Of a stretch of DNA of 64,000 nucleotides, positions 36,992 through 46,222 are shown piece by piece; the stretch's first letter is position 1; every line of letters begins with the position of its first letter. Made by a program: the position numbers and the translations under genes. A model generated the notes under the pieces. That model was not told the DNA's origin and did no database searches. It saw nothing but the letters and a program-made list of their open reading frames with translations. Source of the stretch: Lactobacillus sp. (GTDB taxonomy: Bacteria > Bacillota > Bacilli > Lactobacillales > Lactobacillaceae); contig JAKDPD010000005.1 of assembly GCA_030455605.1 (NCBI GenBank), positions 1-64,000 on the forward strand, read 5' to 3'.

Positions 36992-37595
36992 TTACTGGGT
37001 CAACTGTCCGTTCTCAAGCCGGTAAGTTTGCGTGAAAGGAATCTCTTCAAGCTGATCATGAGAAGCAATAATAATAGCTTTCTGAGTAGCGGCTAGCTGT
37101 TTTATATAATTTAATTAGCGAAGACCTTTAACGACGCCTTATCGAGCCCTCGAGTAGGTTCATCCAACAAGATTAAATCCTGATGCCCCATAAATGCTTG
37201 AATAATACCCACTTTCTGCCGCATCCCCAGTGAATATTTTTTAATTCTAGTCCGGTCGTTATAATCCAAATCAAAATCTGAAAACAGTTGCTTAAAATAA
37301 GCCCGATCAAGATGATGACGTAACTTAGCCAGATACTCAATATTATCTCGGGCACTTTGATATTCAAAAAACTGTGGATTTTCAATCAAGGCCCCAACAT
37401 ATGTTTCAGGGTTCAAAATGACTTTACCCTGGCTGAAAGGCACCGCACCGATGATAACTTTCAAAAGCGTAGATTTACCAGAGCCATTGGCGCCAACTAA
37501 ATGAATGATTTCGCCAGAATTGACCTGCAATGACAAATTATCAAGTACACGCTTTTTACCAAAATGACAATTTAAATGTTCAATCTTTAATTTCA
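36992..37595 (-). pseudogene. ABC transporter ATP-binding protein disrupted by a 5-bp tandem duplication
   Basis: MKLKIEHLNCHFGKKRV, VGANGSGKST, LILLDEPTRGLDKASLKVFAN then stop; removing one TAATT at 37107-37116 restores YIKQLAATQKAIIIASHDQLEEIPFTQTYRLENGQLTQ-stop. Confidence 0.85.
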
Positions 37596-37606
37596 TTTTT
37601 CTCCTC

Positions 37607-37726
37607 ATGGGTGGCTTAAAAAGTAACGGTACAACAAACTTAGTCATCTGGCTGCTTTTATTCGGCTTCTGTTATCGGCTACTCTTAGCGCGGGGATCAC
37701 AGCAATATGAAGGAGTTGGTGCCTGA
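37607..37726 (+). pseudogene. C-terminal remnant of an ABC-2-type permease
   Basis: Plus strand reads MGGLKSNGTTNLVIWLLLFGFCYRLLLARGSQQYEGVGA-stop, TGATG overlap with the next permease. Confidence 0.65.
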
Positions 37727-39142: not shown

Positions 39143-40300
39143 CTATTTAGCTTGATAACGTGAAACCCCATCTAAATAAGTTTCGGCCAAGGTTAAATCA
39201 GGGTTTAGCACCAAGAAGTCGGCGGCCTTATCTGGTTTAATCGAACCGCATTGCGCCAGCCGATTAATGCTCTTAGCCGGCACATAGGACGCCATCATAA
39301 TCGCATCTTCCGCGCGCACAATTTCCCAGTCAACGAGGTGCTTCACCGCATCTTTCAATAATAAGACCGAACCGGCTAAATTATCACCCTGTTTCAGCCG
39401 CGCCATACCGTCTTTCACATAAACCGGTAGCTCACCTAGGATATAATCTCCATCTGGCATCATCCCTGCTTCCATACAGTCAGTAATCAGACAGATATGT
39501 TCGCAGCCTTTGGCCTGAATTAACGCCCGGATAGCTGATTGGGACACATGATGACCATCACAAATCAATTCATCCGTGACCAAGCGGGCGGCAAAAGCCG
39601 CATTGGTAATCGTGGGTTCATGGTGCGATAACGGTGGCATCCCATTATAAGTATGGGTAAACATCGTAGCACCAGCCTCAACGCCCGCCATGGCTTGATC
39701 ATAGCTCGCACTGGAGTGTCCTAATGAAACCACGACACCCATGTTAGCAACAGCCCGAATGAAGTCAGCTGAACCGGCGCGTTCTGGTGCCAGCGAAATT
39801 TTCCGTAATAAGCCATGACTCGCATCCAACCAGCGCTTAAATTGTGCTAAATCTGGATCAGTCATATATTTACGATTTTCAGCCCCTGCATGCTCCGGCG
39901 TAAAGAAGGGACCTTCAAAGTGAATCCCCTGAATTTTCGCCCCGGATTCACTACCTTGGTGGGCCGCAATCAGTTCACAGACCTGCGTTAAGGCTTCACG
40001 TTCAGCAGTAATGGTCGTTGGCAGCCAAGAAGTGACCCCAGCTTGTAATAGACCTTGAGAAATGCGGTCAATCCCGGTCCAATTCAGCTTCATCACATCC
40101 TCGGCTAACAAGCCATGAATATGCGTATCCACCAGTCCCGGTGCAATCCATTTTCCCGAATAATCGATAATCTTACCTGTTGGGCGGGCCTGCTCAGGCA
40201 AATAGCGACCAAAATGACCGTCGCTCGTTATCTCCAGAAAACCGCCCTGTTCGGTTTGATTCTCTAAGAAAAATTTATCGGCATGCAGATAATATGTCAT
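39143..40300 (-). CDS. nagA: N-acetylglucosamine-6-phosphate deacetylase
   Basis: APGLVDTHIHG; GIHFEGPFFTPEHAGAENRKY; SLGHSSASYDQAMAGVEAGATMFTHTYNGM; LITDCMEAGM. Confidence 0.93.
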   Translation of the reverse strand: MTYYLHADKFFLENQTEQGGFLEITSDGHFGRYLPEQARPTGKIIDYSGKWIAPGLVDTHIHGLLAEDVMKLNWTGIDRISQGLLQAGVTSWLPTTITAEREALTQVCELIAAHQGSESGAKIQGIHFEGPFFTPEHAGAENRKYMTDPDLAQFKRWLDASHGLLRKISLAPERAGSADFIRAVANMGVVVSLGHSSASYDQAMAGVEAGATMFTHTYNGMPPLSHHEPTITNAAFAARLVTDELICDGHHVSQSAIRALIQAKGCEHICLITDCMEAGMMPDGDYILGELPVYVKDGMARLKQGDNLAGSVLLLKDAVKHLVDWEIVRAEDAIMMASYVPAKSINRLAQCGSIKPDKAADFLVLNPDLTLAETYLDGVSRYQAK

Positions 40301-40448
40301 TGGTACCAGTCTACTTTCTATTTTGCGGACTTTTGATCCAGTTTCAGCCCCTTTTCTTAAAAAAAGACTGAATGCTTGTCAGATACTTATATCTTAGTTT
40401 AGTTTTTCGTTATAATAAAGGAAAGATGACGATTAGGAAGAAAGAATT

Positions 40449-43400
40449 ATGACACAAGAGACGCAAATGGGTAAACACCAACTTGGTTCACTGACAGGAG
40501 CCAACAAATGTAAACATTATTATGAATTGCATTACCGCACGGGCGAAGTCGCACGGCTCTATATCCTAGCTGATGGCATTTTTCGCTATTATTTAGATCC
40601 AACGGGACAATTTCCAGCGGAAACAACCACTACTGACCCATTAATGGCAGATACCGACTTATTTGAAGCGTCGCAAGCCAAAGCCACCAGTGAAGCCTTA
40701 ATCATCAAGTCCGGTCATTATCAGCTCATTTTTCAGCAAAAAACGGCGTTACTGTCAATTTTCGATGAACAACTGCACCGGACGCGTTTTGCCCAAGCTA
40801 GTCCCTTAGAACTAGGGGCCGGCCAAAGTTGTGAATTCATTAAACAAGCGCCTAATGAATTTTACTATGGTGCCGGTTTTCAAAACGGTCATTTCAGTCA
40901 TAAGGGCCAAAAGGTCATCATTAAACGCGACCGCCTAACTGGTGAAGACGGCGTGATTACCCAAGTGCCATTCTTCTGGTCGAATGCCGGTTTTGCTGAA
41001 CTGCGACGCACCAACGCACCTGGTTGTTATGACTTTGGTAAAACCAATCCAGCCGTCAGTGCCTTGATGCACCAAAGTGCTAGTTTCGATAATTATTACT
41101 TGTTAGCCGACTCCCCTCAAGCCTTGCTCGGCAAATATTATCACCTAACTGGCAAACCATGTCGCCTGCCTACGTCCTGCTTACAACTGGGGCACATCGG
41201 TAATTTCTTAACGACCTTATGGCGACCGGCGCTGGCCAAAGAACGTCAAGCCGATTTGTTCGAAGACGGACATTACTATTTGCGCACGAGCAATCCTAAC
41301 CAAGCCGCTGGCAAAGCTTCACTCAACGGTGAGGAAACGTTTCAGTTCTCCGCACGCGCCATGATTGATCGTTATCTGCGCCACGGTTTTCCCCTAGGTT
41401 GGCTCATTCCCAACTATGGGCAAGCTCCAGTTGACCCGCAAAGCCTAGCGACCTTAACCGATTATGCTGAAACTCACGAATTAGGTCTTGGCTTATGGTC
41501 AGCTGCTAGCCCGCAAGCATTGGCAGCTGGCATTCACTTTGTACTGACCAGTTCACCAACTTCAGCCACCGTAAAACAAATTAACAGCACCCTCGCTGCC
41601 AATCAAATTTCCGCGCGGCAGTTTATGCTCAGTGATCAAGGCTTTGTCGGCAATCAAAATCAGCTAGTCCTGCTGGTTAATGCGGCCGGCGGTGACTGGC
41701 ACAATATTCCCGTTCAAGTTGCTGGTATCCTAGGTTCTGGTTTATCGGGACAACCCCTCGTCGGTATGGCGGTCGATGGCGGTGCAGGCGGTGGTAACGC
41801 CCAAATGGCGATTCGGGATTTTGAATGGAAAGCGCTCAGCCCCATTCTCTGTTTTATCAATGACCAAGGTCGTTATAGTAAGACACCGTTTGCCTACAAC
41901 GCTAAAATGACTGAAATTAATCGCGCTTATCTGGCTTTACGTACCAAGTTAGGGGCCTATCTGTACACGTTAATGCATGCCACTCAAGCTGGTCAACCAG
42001 TGATGCGGCCAATATTTTGGGAATTTCCACATGAACAGCTTAATTACACGACTCAAGTTGGGGCGGAATATTTATTAGGACCTAATTTGCTCGTTGCCCC
42101 TATCTACAGCGGGCGTGAAGATGCAAACGGTCACTCTAAAAAAGACAAATTGTACTTACCGGATCATCGTACCCTGTGGATTGATCTCTTCACGGGGGAA
42201 CCACTCGTTGGTGGCCGGGTCTACAACAACCGTTCTTACCCATTGTGGCATCTCCCCGTCTTCGTCCGTGGCGGTGCAATCTTTGATTTAGGGGAACGAC
42301 AATACGTCATCTATCCTCAAGGTCAGAGTCATTATGACAGCTATGAAGATGATGATCGTCGTGCCCACCATTATGCTAGCGCCCATCTGAGCAGCAGTTT
42401 AGATGACAGCACCTTAACCGTTAAAATCACACCCACGACTGGCAGTTATCCCGGAATGGTTACCCAAGCTGGCACCACTTTAAACCTGTTAACCGACCAT
42501 TATCCTGATGGTATACAACTTAAAATTAATGATCGCATTATTAAGCTCCAAGAGTATGGGACGGTCGAAACCTTCGCCCATGCCAAAGAAGGTTTCTTCT
42601 ACAATACGCACTACAGCTGGCTACCAGAATTCGACGGTTACCAACCACCACGCCAGCAAGCCCTACAAATTAAACTAACCCCTCGGGATATCACACAGAC
42701 AACACTCGAATTAACTATTCGGAACTTTAACTATGGTGGCAACCGAATTGCTCATGCGATTACCGATGCTTTACTGCGTTCGCCAAAGCAGCCGACGATT
42801 CTAGGAGAGAAAACAAGCGCTCACTCAATTACAGTGTCTTGGCCAGCCATCACCAATGAAGTCCAGATTGAAGTAAATGGTATTCTACACGTTGGACTTC
42901 AGGGGAATCATTTTACTTTCCATGAACTCGCACCACATACCCGTTATCTCTTCCGTTTACGGTATCTTGCGGGCAATAAAGTTTCGGAATGGTCCGACCC
43001 ATTCGGTGCGGTCACCAAACCACGACAGCTGGATTATGCCATGCGGCATCTGCAAGTTGACAGCAATTTACCAAGTGCCCCCGACCATCCTTTAGCCTAT
43101 CTGACCGACTTAAAGCTCGCCAGTGAATGGCAAACTGCCACTGGCGTTAGCGAGACAGCACCATTGGTCCTAACTTTTACCTTTGAACAAGTCGAAGAAC
43201 TCAGCCGGATTGTCTTTGTTCCACGGGCAATTGACAGTACTGGCGATCCACTTAGCGTTCAACTTGCAAGCTCGCCAGATGGCACCCATTTCACACCTTA
43301 TGGCGACCGTATTACATGGAAAGCCGATAATAAGAATAAGGTGATTGGCCTACGTGATGTCACTGCTAAAGCCATTCGGCTCACCGTCTTTAAAGCCGTA

Positions 43401-43451
43401 GGGAACTGCGTCTCTGGACAAGAATTGATGATTTTCAAAGCACAACATTAA
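40449..43451 (+). CDS. GH31-family protein with FN3 and F5/8C-like C-terminal domains; catalytic Asp residues apparently missing
   Basis: GH31 architecture (ELGAGQSCEF..FYYGAGFQNG, GWLIPNYGQ, SGLSGQPLVGMAVDGGAGGG, IRDFEWKALSPI, MRPIFWEFP, YLLGPNLLVAPIY). Confidence 0.8.
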   Translation: MTQETQMGKHQLGSLTGANKCKHYYELHYRTGEVARLYILADGIFRYYLDPTGQFPAETTTTDPLMADTDLFEASQAKATSEALIIKSGHYQLIFQQKTALLSIFDEQLHRTRFAQASPLELGAGQSCEFIKQAPNEFYYGAGFQNGHFSHKGQKVIIKRDRLTGEDGVITQVPFFWSNAGFAELRRTNAPGCYDFGKTNPAVSALMHQSASFDNYYLLADSPQALLGKYYHLTGKPCRLPTSCLQLGHIGNFLTTLWRPALAKERQADLFEDGHYYLRTSNPNQAAGKASLNGEETFQFSARAMIDRYLRHGFPLGWLIPNYGQAPVDPQSLATLTDYAETHELGLGLWSAASPQALAAGIHFVLTSSPTSATVKQINSTLAANQISARQFMLSDQGFVGNQNQLVLLVNAAGGDWHNIPVQVAGILGSGLSGQPLVGMAVDGGAGGGNAQMAIRDFEWKALSPILCFINDQGRYSKTPFAYNAKMTEINRAYLALRTKLGAYLYTLMHATQAGQPVMRPIFWEFPHEQLNYTTQVGAEYLLGPNLLVAPIYSGREDANGHSKKDKLYLPDHRTLWIDLFTGEPLVGGRVYNNRSYPLWHLPVFVRGGAIFDLGERQYVIYPQGQSHYDSYEDDDRRAHHYASAHLSSSLDDSTLTVKITPTTGSYPGMVTQAGTTLNLLTDHYPDGIQLKINDRIIKLQEYGTVETFAHAKEGFFYNTHYSWLPEFDGYQPPRQQALQIKLTPRDITQTTLELTIRNFNYGGNRIAHAITDALLRSPKQPTILGEKTSAHSITVSWPAITNEVQIEVNGILHVGLQGNHFTFHELAPHTRYLFRLRYLAGNKVSEWSDPFGAVTKPRQLDYAMRHLQVDSNLPSAPDHPLAYLTDLKLASEWQTATGVSETAPLVLTFTFEQVEELSRIVFVPRAIDSTGDPLSVQLASSPDGTHFTPYGDRITWKADNKNKVIGLRDVTAKAIRLTVFKAVGNCVSGQELMIFKAQH

Positions 43452-43501: not shown

Positions 43502-44323
43502 TTAATGACCTAATTGCTGATCTAACCATTCTAAACTTAACTTGAACCAATGTGATGCATGCGGGTTATTCTGCCAAGCACGGCCCTCAGTGACGAGCTC
43601 TGGCCGCGCTAAAGAAAAGCCGTGACCACCATGAGCAAAGAGATGCGCCTCACATGATACCTGTTTAGCCTGCAAGGCAGCTAAATATTCCAGAGAATTG
43701 GTAATCAGAACAATTGGATCGTCCCACGCCTGGAATAAAAACGTCACTGGATGTTTAGGGGTAACCCCCTTAGCAGTATCAAGTAGTTCTACCTCAGCTG
43801 GATATTTGCCCTTTTGATCTTCAGGAATGATAAAACCAACCTTTTCAATATTAATCAGTGGGTAGCCCAAAATAGTCGCATTGGGACGTACCTGATCGCT
43901 CACATAACCAAAACGCTTAGCTAATTTAGGCATATTAGCCAGAATATTAGCCGCTGACACCACATGACCACCAGCTGAAAAACCTGCCGTCACAATCTGT
44001 TGCGGATCAAGTTGATAGGCTGACGCATGTTGTCTAAAATACCTCACCGTTGTCAGCAAATCCAAGGCAGCGTCGGGATAAATATTTCCCGGATCTTGCA
44101 CCAGATTATAATCCATCACAGCCGCATTATAGCCATGGCTGAGATAGGCCAAGGCGACTGGTTCACCTTCACGCTGTGCCAAGTGGTTAAAACTACCGCC
44201 CGGAACGACAATAATCAAAGGACGCTGCGGCGTGACTAAATTGGGATTGACTTCAGCACAATAAGTCCGCAGGCGAAAGGCACGGCCATTAAAATTAGTT
44301 AACGTTAACTCTTCACTTTTCAT
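43502..44323 (-). CDS. Alpha/beta hydrolase (acetylxylan-esterase/BD-FAE-like)
   Basis: IIVVPGGSFNHLAQREGEPVALAYLSHGYN; TAGFSAGGHVVSA; HGGHGFSLA. Confidence 0.85.
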   Translation of the reverse strand: MKSEELTLTNFNGRAFRLRTYCAEVNPNLVTPQRPLIIVVPGGSFNHLAQREGEPVALAYLSHGYNAAVMDYNLVQDPGNIYPDAALDLLTTVRYFRQHASAYQLDPQQIVTAGFSAGGHVVSAANILANMPKLAKRFGYVSDQVRPNATILGYPLINIEKVGFIIPEDQKGKYPAEVELLDTAKGVTPKHPVTFLFQAWDDPIVLITNSLEYLAALQAKQVSCEAHLFAHGGHGFSLARPELVTEGRAWQNNPHASHWFKLSLEWLDQQLGH

Positions 44324-45080
44324 TCTTCACCTCAGTTTTCGTGATACCCTCAACCAACAGTATAGTCGTAAGTGGCACTGTCAATAATACGCCAATTAGT
44401 GAATACATGATAATCAAGGCTTCATTCACAAATAGCTTTTCATTCAAAACTTGGCCAATACTATAATTGAGCCGGAAATACCAGAGAAATAAACTTAAAA
44501 AGCTCCCAAACATCCCAAATAAAATGGTATTCAGTGCCGTGCCAATCACATCGGTCCCAATCCGGTTACCGCTACGCTTCAAAGCGACCGCTGAGATACC
44601 AGGTTGTGCCCGCTTTAAGGCTAATAAGCCAGATGACATGGCAACCGCGGCCTCGGCAATCGCCCCCAGTGACGAGAACATCGCGACTGCTACAGCAATC
44701 ATCGGATAACTGAGTCCTGGCATCTGAGACAGCCCGACTAACACTTCACCGGCTTCTGGACCGAGTCCAGCAGCCTGCGCAAAGTACTGTACCACTAAGA
44801 TTAACAAACTTACTGTCACTGAAACGATTAAGGCGGCCACAAAGGAATTTTTAGCAACTCGCCCATTATGGGTCCCTAGGAAAATAATAGTGACTAATTT
44901 CAATGGAATAAAAATCAAAATCAATAATTCAATGTTAATTCCCCATGAAATTAATAATGCCACCAAAATCAGTAGCAACGTATTAATCAAGACACTGAAG
45001 AAACTACGAATCCCGGTTTCACCACCGACGATGGTCATCAAGATTGCCAAGACCACAATTAGTGCTGCTAAAGTACTCAC
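44313..45080 (-). CDS. YibE/F-family membrane protein
   Basis: Multi-TM, NSFVAALIVSVTVSLL, GAIAEAAVAMSSGLLAL; adjacent second YibE/F gene. Confidence 0.8.
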   Translation of the reverse strand: MSTLAALIVVLAILMTIVGGETGIRSFFSVLINTLLLILVALLISWGINIELLILIFIPLKLVTIIFLGTHNGRVAKNSFVAALIVSVTVSLLILVVQYFAQAAGLGPEAGEVLVGLSQMPGLSYPMIAVAVAMFSSLGAIAEAAVAMSSGLLALKRAQPGISAVALKRSGNRIGTDVIGTALNTILFGMFGSFLSLFLWYFRLNYSIGQVLNEKLFVNEALIIMYSLIGVLLTVPLTTILLVEGITKTEVKNEK

Positions 45081-46222
45081 ACTAAGTCACCCCGCTTTCT
45101 TGCTCGCAAAAACCACAGACTACAGCCCGTCGCAAAAATAACGGTCAAGACAATCCCAATAGCCGCAATCACACTTTGCGTTGCACCGAGCGACAAGGTA
45201 AAACCAAAGGCAGCGCTGAGCGTATTATTATCTCGCAAATATAGAATCGTTTCTGGCAAAGCCCCTGAAATAAAAATTAAGACGAGCACGTTAATCAGTG
45301 GCCCCATAATTTCCTGTCCCATCGCGCGGCCACTTTTAATCAAAGTTAGTGGTGTGATGTCAGGCGTCGTTTTAACCAGTTCATGAAGACTCGATACAAT
45401 ATCGGTGGCTTCATCCATCACGGCACCCAAGATACCCAAGAGTGCTTGTGCCATAAAAATACCACGGGGATCTTGCGTTGCATAGTCGCCAGTTTCATAC
45501 CGCATCTCAGTCTCACCTGTCAGTTTCATCATAGCATAACAAATGCCAAAACTAATAAACACCCCCAGAAGTGTCGCCACCCAAGTGACTAGCATCTTCT
45601 GATTGACACCTTGCACAATCGCCAGACTGACAAATGAGAAAATGATATTAGCACTGGCAAAGAAGAGAAACATCGAGGTCCCATTGAGCTTAACGTCCGC
45701 TAAGATGACCCCATAAAAAATCACCCAGCTCAAAACCAACGAACAAATTAAGGGAATCGCCTTTTTCCCAGTAACCGACACCATTAGCGCTAAAGTCAGG
45801 GTAAGCATTAAGACCAATACCCAGTCCCGTTTGGGATTCACAATAGCCGGCTGGTTCTTCTTAATATCGACGAAAATCCGCTGACGCGGACGATACTTCT
45901 GACTAACCAGTTGCGATGGATAATAAACATTGCTCGTCACATATTTTTTGCCACGCTGGGGACCAGACAGAATCGTGAGGTGGAGTATTTGTCGCCTCGT
46001 CTGGTCAACATTGCCATAAACATCCTTATCGCGCTGCACAAAGGTATCCTTAATCTGATGATCAGTAATTAAAGCCACCGAATCACGTTGATAAATGTGC
46101 GTCGCAAAATACGTGGCTAACGTCAAACCACTACCAACCAATAATATGATTATCGCTATCAGATACTTTTTTTTCATTGCTCTCCTCAAACTATTATGGT
46201 CACTGCTGTTAGCGTAAAACAA
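45077..46222 (-). CDS. YibE/F-family membrane protein
   Basis: GILGAVMDEATDIVSSLHELVKTTPDITPLTLIKSGRAMGQEIMGPLINVLVLIFISGALPE. Confidence 0.87.
   Translation of the reverse strand: MFYANSSDHNSLRRAMKKKYLIAIIILLVGSGLTLATYFATHIYQRDSVALITDHQIKDTFVQRDKDVYGNVDQTRRQILHLTILSGPQRGKKYVTSNVYYPSQLVSQKYRPRQRIFVDIKKNQPAIVNPKRDWVLVLMLTLTLALMVSVTGKKAIPLICSLVLSWVIFYGVILADVKLNGTSMFLFFASANIIFSFVSLAIVQGVNQKMLVTWVATLLGVFISFGICYAMMKLTGETEMRYETGDYATQDPRGIFMAQALLGILGAVMDEATDIVSSLHELVKTTPDITPLTLIKSGRAMGQEIMGPLINVLVLIFISGALPETILYLRDNNTLSAAFGFTLSLGATQSVIAAIGIVLTVIFATGCSLWFLRARKRGDLV

Follow-up and report, generated by a model that had tools for sequence, protein, structure and literature searches.

Organization of the ψ-GH31 locus

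The window, a stretch of 64,000 nucleotides from a contig of Lactobacillus sp. (JAKDPD010000005.1), contains an intact gene for a large protein of the glycosidase family GH31, which we refer to as psi-GH31, next to a divergently oriented nagA gene:

39143..40300, minus strand: nagA, encoding N-acetylglucosamine-6-phosphate deacetylase (TIGR00221, 276.6 bits against a cut-off of 225.65), a divergent neighbor kept in the genus
40301..40448, no strand assigned: nagA/psi-GH31 divergent intergenic region, with a –10 element (TATAAT, 40411-40416) and a ribosome-binding site (40434-40440)
40449..43451, plus strand: psi-GH31, ATG start, intact frame of 1000 aa, with profile, phmmer, and HHalign matches
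42759..43448, plus strand: C-terminal FN3 (~aa 771-860) and F5/8C discoidin/CBM32-like (aa 877-984) domains of psi-GH31, from Pfam and conservation among orthologues

The ribosome-binding site of psi-GH31 (TAGGAAG) is rated good, and both promoter and ribosome-binding site are conserved among orthologues. Pfam recognizes the GH31 C-terminal domain (PF21365, 1.6e-18) and the GH31 TIM barrel (PF01055, 1.1e-10), the latter covering only profile positions 200-328, i.e., the second half; the two matches together assign the protein to the GH31 family. DUF5110 (PF17137) and F5/8C are recognized as well. The FN3- and F5/8C-like C-terminal regions described in the initial annotation, which was made from the sequence alone, were thus recovered, F5/8C by Pfam in psi-GH31 and in every orthologue scanned, and FN3 in orthologues. 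An AlphaFold model of psi-GH31 built from three sequences reached a pLDDT of 31 and a pTM of 0.24 and was discarded.

The best solved relative is the GH31 α-N-acetylgalactosaminidase of E. faecalis (6m76, 7f7q, 7f7r), matched by phmmer with 487-488 bits, followed by the next structure at 97 bits. The nearest characterized relatives are therefore α-GalNAcases, as expected for GH31 subfamily 18. The name GH31_18 is in use for α-N-acetylgalactosaminidases, including a member from Hoskinsella mucinilytica (PMC13096917). The E. faecalis GH31_18 enzyme (PDB 6m76, 6m77, 7f7q, 7f7r) and psi-GH31 share the domain order of barrel, C-terminal GH31 domain, DUF5110-like domain, and FN3. Known GH31_18 members are active enzymes that are secreted or anchored to the wall, whereas no signal peptide is visible in psi-GH31 by sequence, a reading that is not based on a dedicated predictor. 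Given this absence of a visible signal peptide, psi-GH31 is most likely located in the cytoplasm.

Loss of the catalytic strand, acid/base residue, and pocket loops

Three positions within the barrel differ from catalytically intact relatives:

41409..41420, plus strand: place where the NDGYGAG pocket loop is missing; the loop is present in 20/20 intact relatives and 0/66 orthologues
41535..41570, plus strand: GH31 nucleophile-strand position (LKTDVAWVG in intact relatives), reading HFVLTSSPTSAT, with S368 at the Asp position and the flanking loops deleted
41670..41699, plus strand: GH31 acid/base motif position (WTGDETGGEW in intact relatives), reading LLVNAAGGDW (aa 408-417)

The initial annotation had reported a full-length GH31 protein apparently lacking both catalytic aspartates and had aligned FVLTSSPTSAT (aa 364-374, 41538-41570) and LLVNAAGGDW to the catalytic strands. 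Both placements were reproduced in a MAFFT alignment with intact relatives and independently by HHalign: LTSSPT sits at the expected ALKTDVAW, and VNAAGG at the expected WTGDETGG. In the window protein, the column of the nucleophile, an Asp at the end of strand β4, contains Ser or is unalignable, and the column of the WTGD aspartate contains Ala (MAFFT) or Asn (phmmer). For the window species the observation is therefore correct, and it understates what is found across the genus. The simple S/N substitutions assumed at that time do not describe the change, as three stretches are deleted in addition: about 6 residues after PN (the NDGYGAG loop), 16-17 before the nucleophile strand, and 7-9 after it. 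The phmmer alignment to the E. faecalis enzyme breaks at residues 354-387, which is the nucleophile region, and an HHalign comparison of the orthologue profile with the intact-relative profile (E 2e-204) has top confidence nearly throughout, collapsing only at about aa 350-385. We considered misalignment of the catalytic strand; it is rejected on the basis of the three alignment methods (phmmer, MAFFT, HHalign) and the lack of any conserved acid nearby.

We then compared 66 aligned orthologues with an intact set of only 20 sequences. The nucleophile is absent in all 66 orthologues, LKTDVAWVG being replaced by variable sequence, and no conserved D/E was found across them in the nucleophile strand or nearby. 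Likewise, none of the 66 has the NDGYGAG loop or the roughly 16 residues preceding the nucleophile strand. The acid/base Asp, found in all 20 intact relatives, is kept in 37 orthologues and absent in 29, so that the claimed loss of both aspartates holds for the window species and, for the acid/base residue, not for every orthologue. Mapped on the tree, its state changes 8 times, and several lineages, the window's included, lack it. Positions invariant in intact relatives were lost preferentially from the barrel region (62/137, against 14/83 elsewhere; Fisher p 1.8e-5). Because the strand is replaced, the loops are deleted, the acid/base residue is lost in several lineages, and the losses are concentrated in the barrel, the residues for the retaining GH31 mechanism are absent. 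Loss of this chemistry in Lactobacillus psi-GH31 is well supported by these comparisons, and we predict that the protein does not hydrolyze α-GalNAc; low-level or altered chemistry is possible on sequence grounds. At the active site, psi-GH31 thus differs from GH31_18 enzymes in having neither nucleophile strand nor pocket loops; in the window species, the acid/base Asp is gone as well.

Other parts of the protein are well conserved. R456, D457, D443, and K461 of the barrel are retained in orthologues, and the barrel segment VDGxxGGGNAQxxxRDFEWK, partly specific to the clade, is among the most conserved positions. Two of the retained residues, D457 and D443, are found in intact relatives as well and are therefore not new catalytic residues. 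Conservation of the FN3 and N-terminal domains among orthologues is equal to or higher than that of the barrel, and the same applies to F5/8C. Intact relatives show the inverse pattern, with the barrel as by far the best conserved part.

Psi-GH31 is conserved and under selection throughout Lactobacillus

A survey of 75 Lactobacillus genomes, 60 of them near-complete, revealed an orthologue of about 1000 aa with an intact frame in 60/60 near-complete genomes, which excludes a one-off loss in a single species. The full-length orthologues share 44-94% identity with the window protein; relatives of the window genome are Lactobacillus sp. UBA5804 (94%) and L. corticis (64%). Outside Lactobacillus, we searched 401 genomes from the family and 398 from the order; apart from proteins of the long secreted type, strong matches were limited to two shorter proteins of a single genus, g28. 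In 13/60 near-complete genomes, and also in the window's own genome, psi-GH31 is the sole match to the GH31 barrel.

In phylogenies calculated with the catalytic columns removed, Lactobacillus psi-GH31 forms one clade with a support of 100 (LG+G4 and LG+C20). Its sister under both models is the cytoplasmic-type GH31 of g28, which has intact motifs. The common deletions were excluded from the tree and agree with a single clade.

Whole-gene dN/dS of psi-GH31 is 0.02-0.11 (15 close pairs), compared with 0.014-0.10 for nagA from the same genomes (14 measurable pairs). Such values argue for a protein under selection and against decay. For the nucleophile region alone, ω is ∼1 in the window pair. 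By its pattern of substitutions, psi-GH31 is conserved by selection and not decaying; constraint has relaxed at the former catalytic strand. It combines lost catalytic residues with an intact gene and purifying selection, as is characteristic of a pseudoenzyme. The proposal of a candidate pseudoenzyme is therefore supported and extends to the whole genus, and the argument that a long intact frame speaks against simple decay gains weight from the near-complete genomes and the dN/dS values.

Genomic context and a putative operator

A divergent nagA gene lies within 2.2 kb of psi-GH31 in 60/66 loci, with a distance from start to start of usually 94-192 nt, and remains there where other flanking genes are rearranged. 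In the available sequence of the other six loci nagA was not found; one of these has just 264 bases upstream.

The shared intergenic region contains an operator-like inverted repeat, TGGTN4ACCA, in 40/50 cases (expected 0.045; loci considered: window, L005-L062, L090, L091, and L096), which also precedes gntR in g28 and L096. We take this motif to be reminiscent of the known NagR/DasR operator, and the window genome encodes a YvoA/NagR-like regulator (2e-35). The operator is altered or missing in the window species as well as in its close relatives. The window counterpart, TTGGTACCAG at 40300-40309, resembles the repeat with a shorter spacing; since only this shortened form is seen there, regulation through the operator is uncertain in the window species. 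There is overlap between the operator and the nagA side of this region, and nagA may be the only gene under its control. A genome-wide search for the pattern gave 1-5 sites per genome, which was no better than a reversed control in several genomes, and we therefore do not claim a wider regulon.

A GntR-AgaS-NagA context is found in g28 and in one Lactobacillus clade. In g28 the gene order is nagA, AgaS, GntR, followed by the divergent GH31 gene. In L096 and similar loci of the Lactobacillus clade, the dead GH31 lies opposite GntR-AgaS-NagA, behind which come mannose-family PTS genes, and the best match of the L096 PTS IIC is AgaW, an N-acetylgalactosamine transporter. AgaS and GntR are missing from the locus in most species. 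The adjacency to nagA and the operator-like site tie psi-GH31, as far as gene context can, to amino-sugar metabolism. The link to the divergent nagA gene suggested earlier is supported by conserved adjacency, the operator-like site, and the GntR-AgaS-NagA context of deeper relatives.

Some additional features of these loci were recorded. L096:11027-15709 is arranged as GntR-AgaS-NagA, then mannose-family PTS IIB and IIC, an aga-type operon. In the window, an lp_1002-like esterase (215.6 bits, below the cut-off of 300) and two YibE/F membrane proteins are encoded at 43502-46222 (minus strand); these genes stay downstream of GH31 in many relatives, including g28. An ABC-transporter ATPase ORF of 178 aa at 37111-37647 (minus strand) ends soon past the Walker B/D-loop region and is possibly truncated. 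It is adjoined by a divergent gene for a 257-aa membrane protein.

Possible functions of psi-GH31

We propose that psi-GH31 is a cytoplasmic pseudo-GalNAcase present throughout the genus, whose role in amino-sugar metabolism is not catalysis but binding, sensing, or scaffolding, a reading to which we assign a probability of roughly one half. Its ancestor would have been a cytoplasmic GH31 enzyme resembling α-N-acetylgalactosaminidases that worked within an amino-sugar locus of the GntR-AgaS-NagA kind. The lineage leading to Lactobacillus would then have lost the nucleophile strand together with two pocket loops and a large part of the active-site pocket, most simply on one occasion in the common ancestor; loss of the acid/base Asp would have followed, several times over. 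Strong purifying selection has kept the remaining multidomain scaffold in every species, and glycoside hydrolysis by the GH31 mechanism would no longer be carried out. Psi-GH31 would then most likely act as a cytoplasmic non-catalytic binding protein of the amino-sugar regulon, sensing or scaffolding either amino-sugar ligands or the NagA/AgaS/NagR machinery. The catalytic residues are lost, the clade has a single origin, the gene is under selection, and it is linked to nagA across a common intergenic region. A retained non-catalytic function is implied by two of these lines, selection and synteny, and we infer a protein that binds some ligand or partner and has a regulatory or scaffolding role. 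A more far-reaching and quite tentative version is that psi-GH31 senses amino sugars or glycoconjugates and controls NagA/AgaS flux or a NagR-type regulator in all Lactobacillus, which would amount to the conversion of an enzyme into a metabolic sensor.

The main rival to such an amino-sugar sensing or scaffolding role is that the dead barrel serves as scaffold only, and that the N-terminal β-sandwich, FN3, and lectin-like F5/8C domains carry a selected function unrelated to nagA. They could, for instance, bind a glycan of the cell wall or a storage glycan, either inside the cytoplasm or at the surface, which the protein would reach through lysis or leaderless export. The high conservation of the FN3 and N-terminal domains relative to the barrel, the inverse of intact relatives, and the presence of F5/8C in all orthologues scanned speak for this explanation, and nagA is not nearby at some loci. 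We nevertheless consider this explanation somewhat unlikely in view of the highly conserved, partly clade-specific VDGxxGGGNAQxxxRDFEWK positions within the barrel, a nagA linkage that outlasts rearranged flanks, and the lack of a visible signal peptide.

That psi-GH31 retains enzymatic activity through catalytic machinery that has moved or changed, such as one for an inverting or transferase reaction via other residues, is improbable, and the divergent catalytic mechanism offered as an option in the initial annotation is disfavored. The Asp at the acid/base position in more than half of the orthologues and the conserved barrel residues R456, D457, D443, and K461 would suit it, but the nucleophile strand has no conserved carboxylate, the acid/base Asp is gone in many lineages including the window's, many pocket positions are lost, and D457 and D443 are shared with intact relatives. 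Least probable by a wide distance is ordinary decay, a pseudogene in progress after GalNAc use was lost. The missing AgaS and GntR genes and the freely evolving nucleophile region in some pairs, such as the window pair, would fit decay, but intact frames of about 1000 aa, low dN/dS, and a conserved promoter and ribosome-binding site do not; for the genus as a whole, the pseudogene reading is refuted by the dN/dS values and intact frames.

If psi-GH31 is a non-catalytic protein, it joins other glycosidase-family pseudoenzymes. Chitinase-like GH18 lectins are an example, in which selection has preserved the fold although the catalytic residues are gone. They share the kept fold and lost catalysis with psi-GH31 and belong to a different family. 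In the literature searched, we found no description of a GH31 pseudoenzyme, nor anything relevant under the locus tags; the key GH31_18 structure and subfamily papers lay outside this search, and prior notice is possible.

A survey of 1020 genomes reported two glycosidase families as ubiquitous in Lactobacillus, GH31 among them, and interpreted GH31 as α-glucosidase-type (PMC11790720). Our comparisons point to the GH31 member found everywhere being catalytically dead. A protein related to a mucin-sugar-cleaving enzyme and counted as α-glucosidase in surveys then probably has another, non-cleaving task, and annotations and predictions of sugar use that depend on it are likely to be in error. 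Psi-GH31 is a core gene under strong selection, and the genus that carries it matters to both food and medicine.

Intact relatives of psi-GH31

Since an intact sister enzyme and an ancestral-type locus survive, the transition from an enzyme to a pseudoenzyme is open to direct experiment. The g28 GH31 (L090, L091) resembles psi-GH31 in its full-length homology including F5/8C, its lack of a visible signal peptide, and its divergent orientation to amino-sugar genes (GntR-AgaS-NagA). Unlike psi-GH31, it has kept LKTDVAWVG and (T/S)GDQ, and AgaS and GntR are still in the locus. Some Lactobacillus species also encode EfNag31A-like paralogues (L072-L085; open frames of ~915-1990 aa), which belong to the same family branch as psi-GH31 with ~30% identity but have intact catalytic motifs and are found in some species only. 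In L074 and L075, each genome has two neighboring intact EfNag31A-like GH31 paralogues in addition to the dead one.
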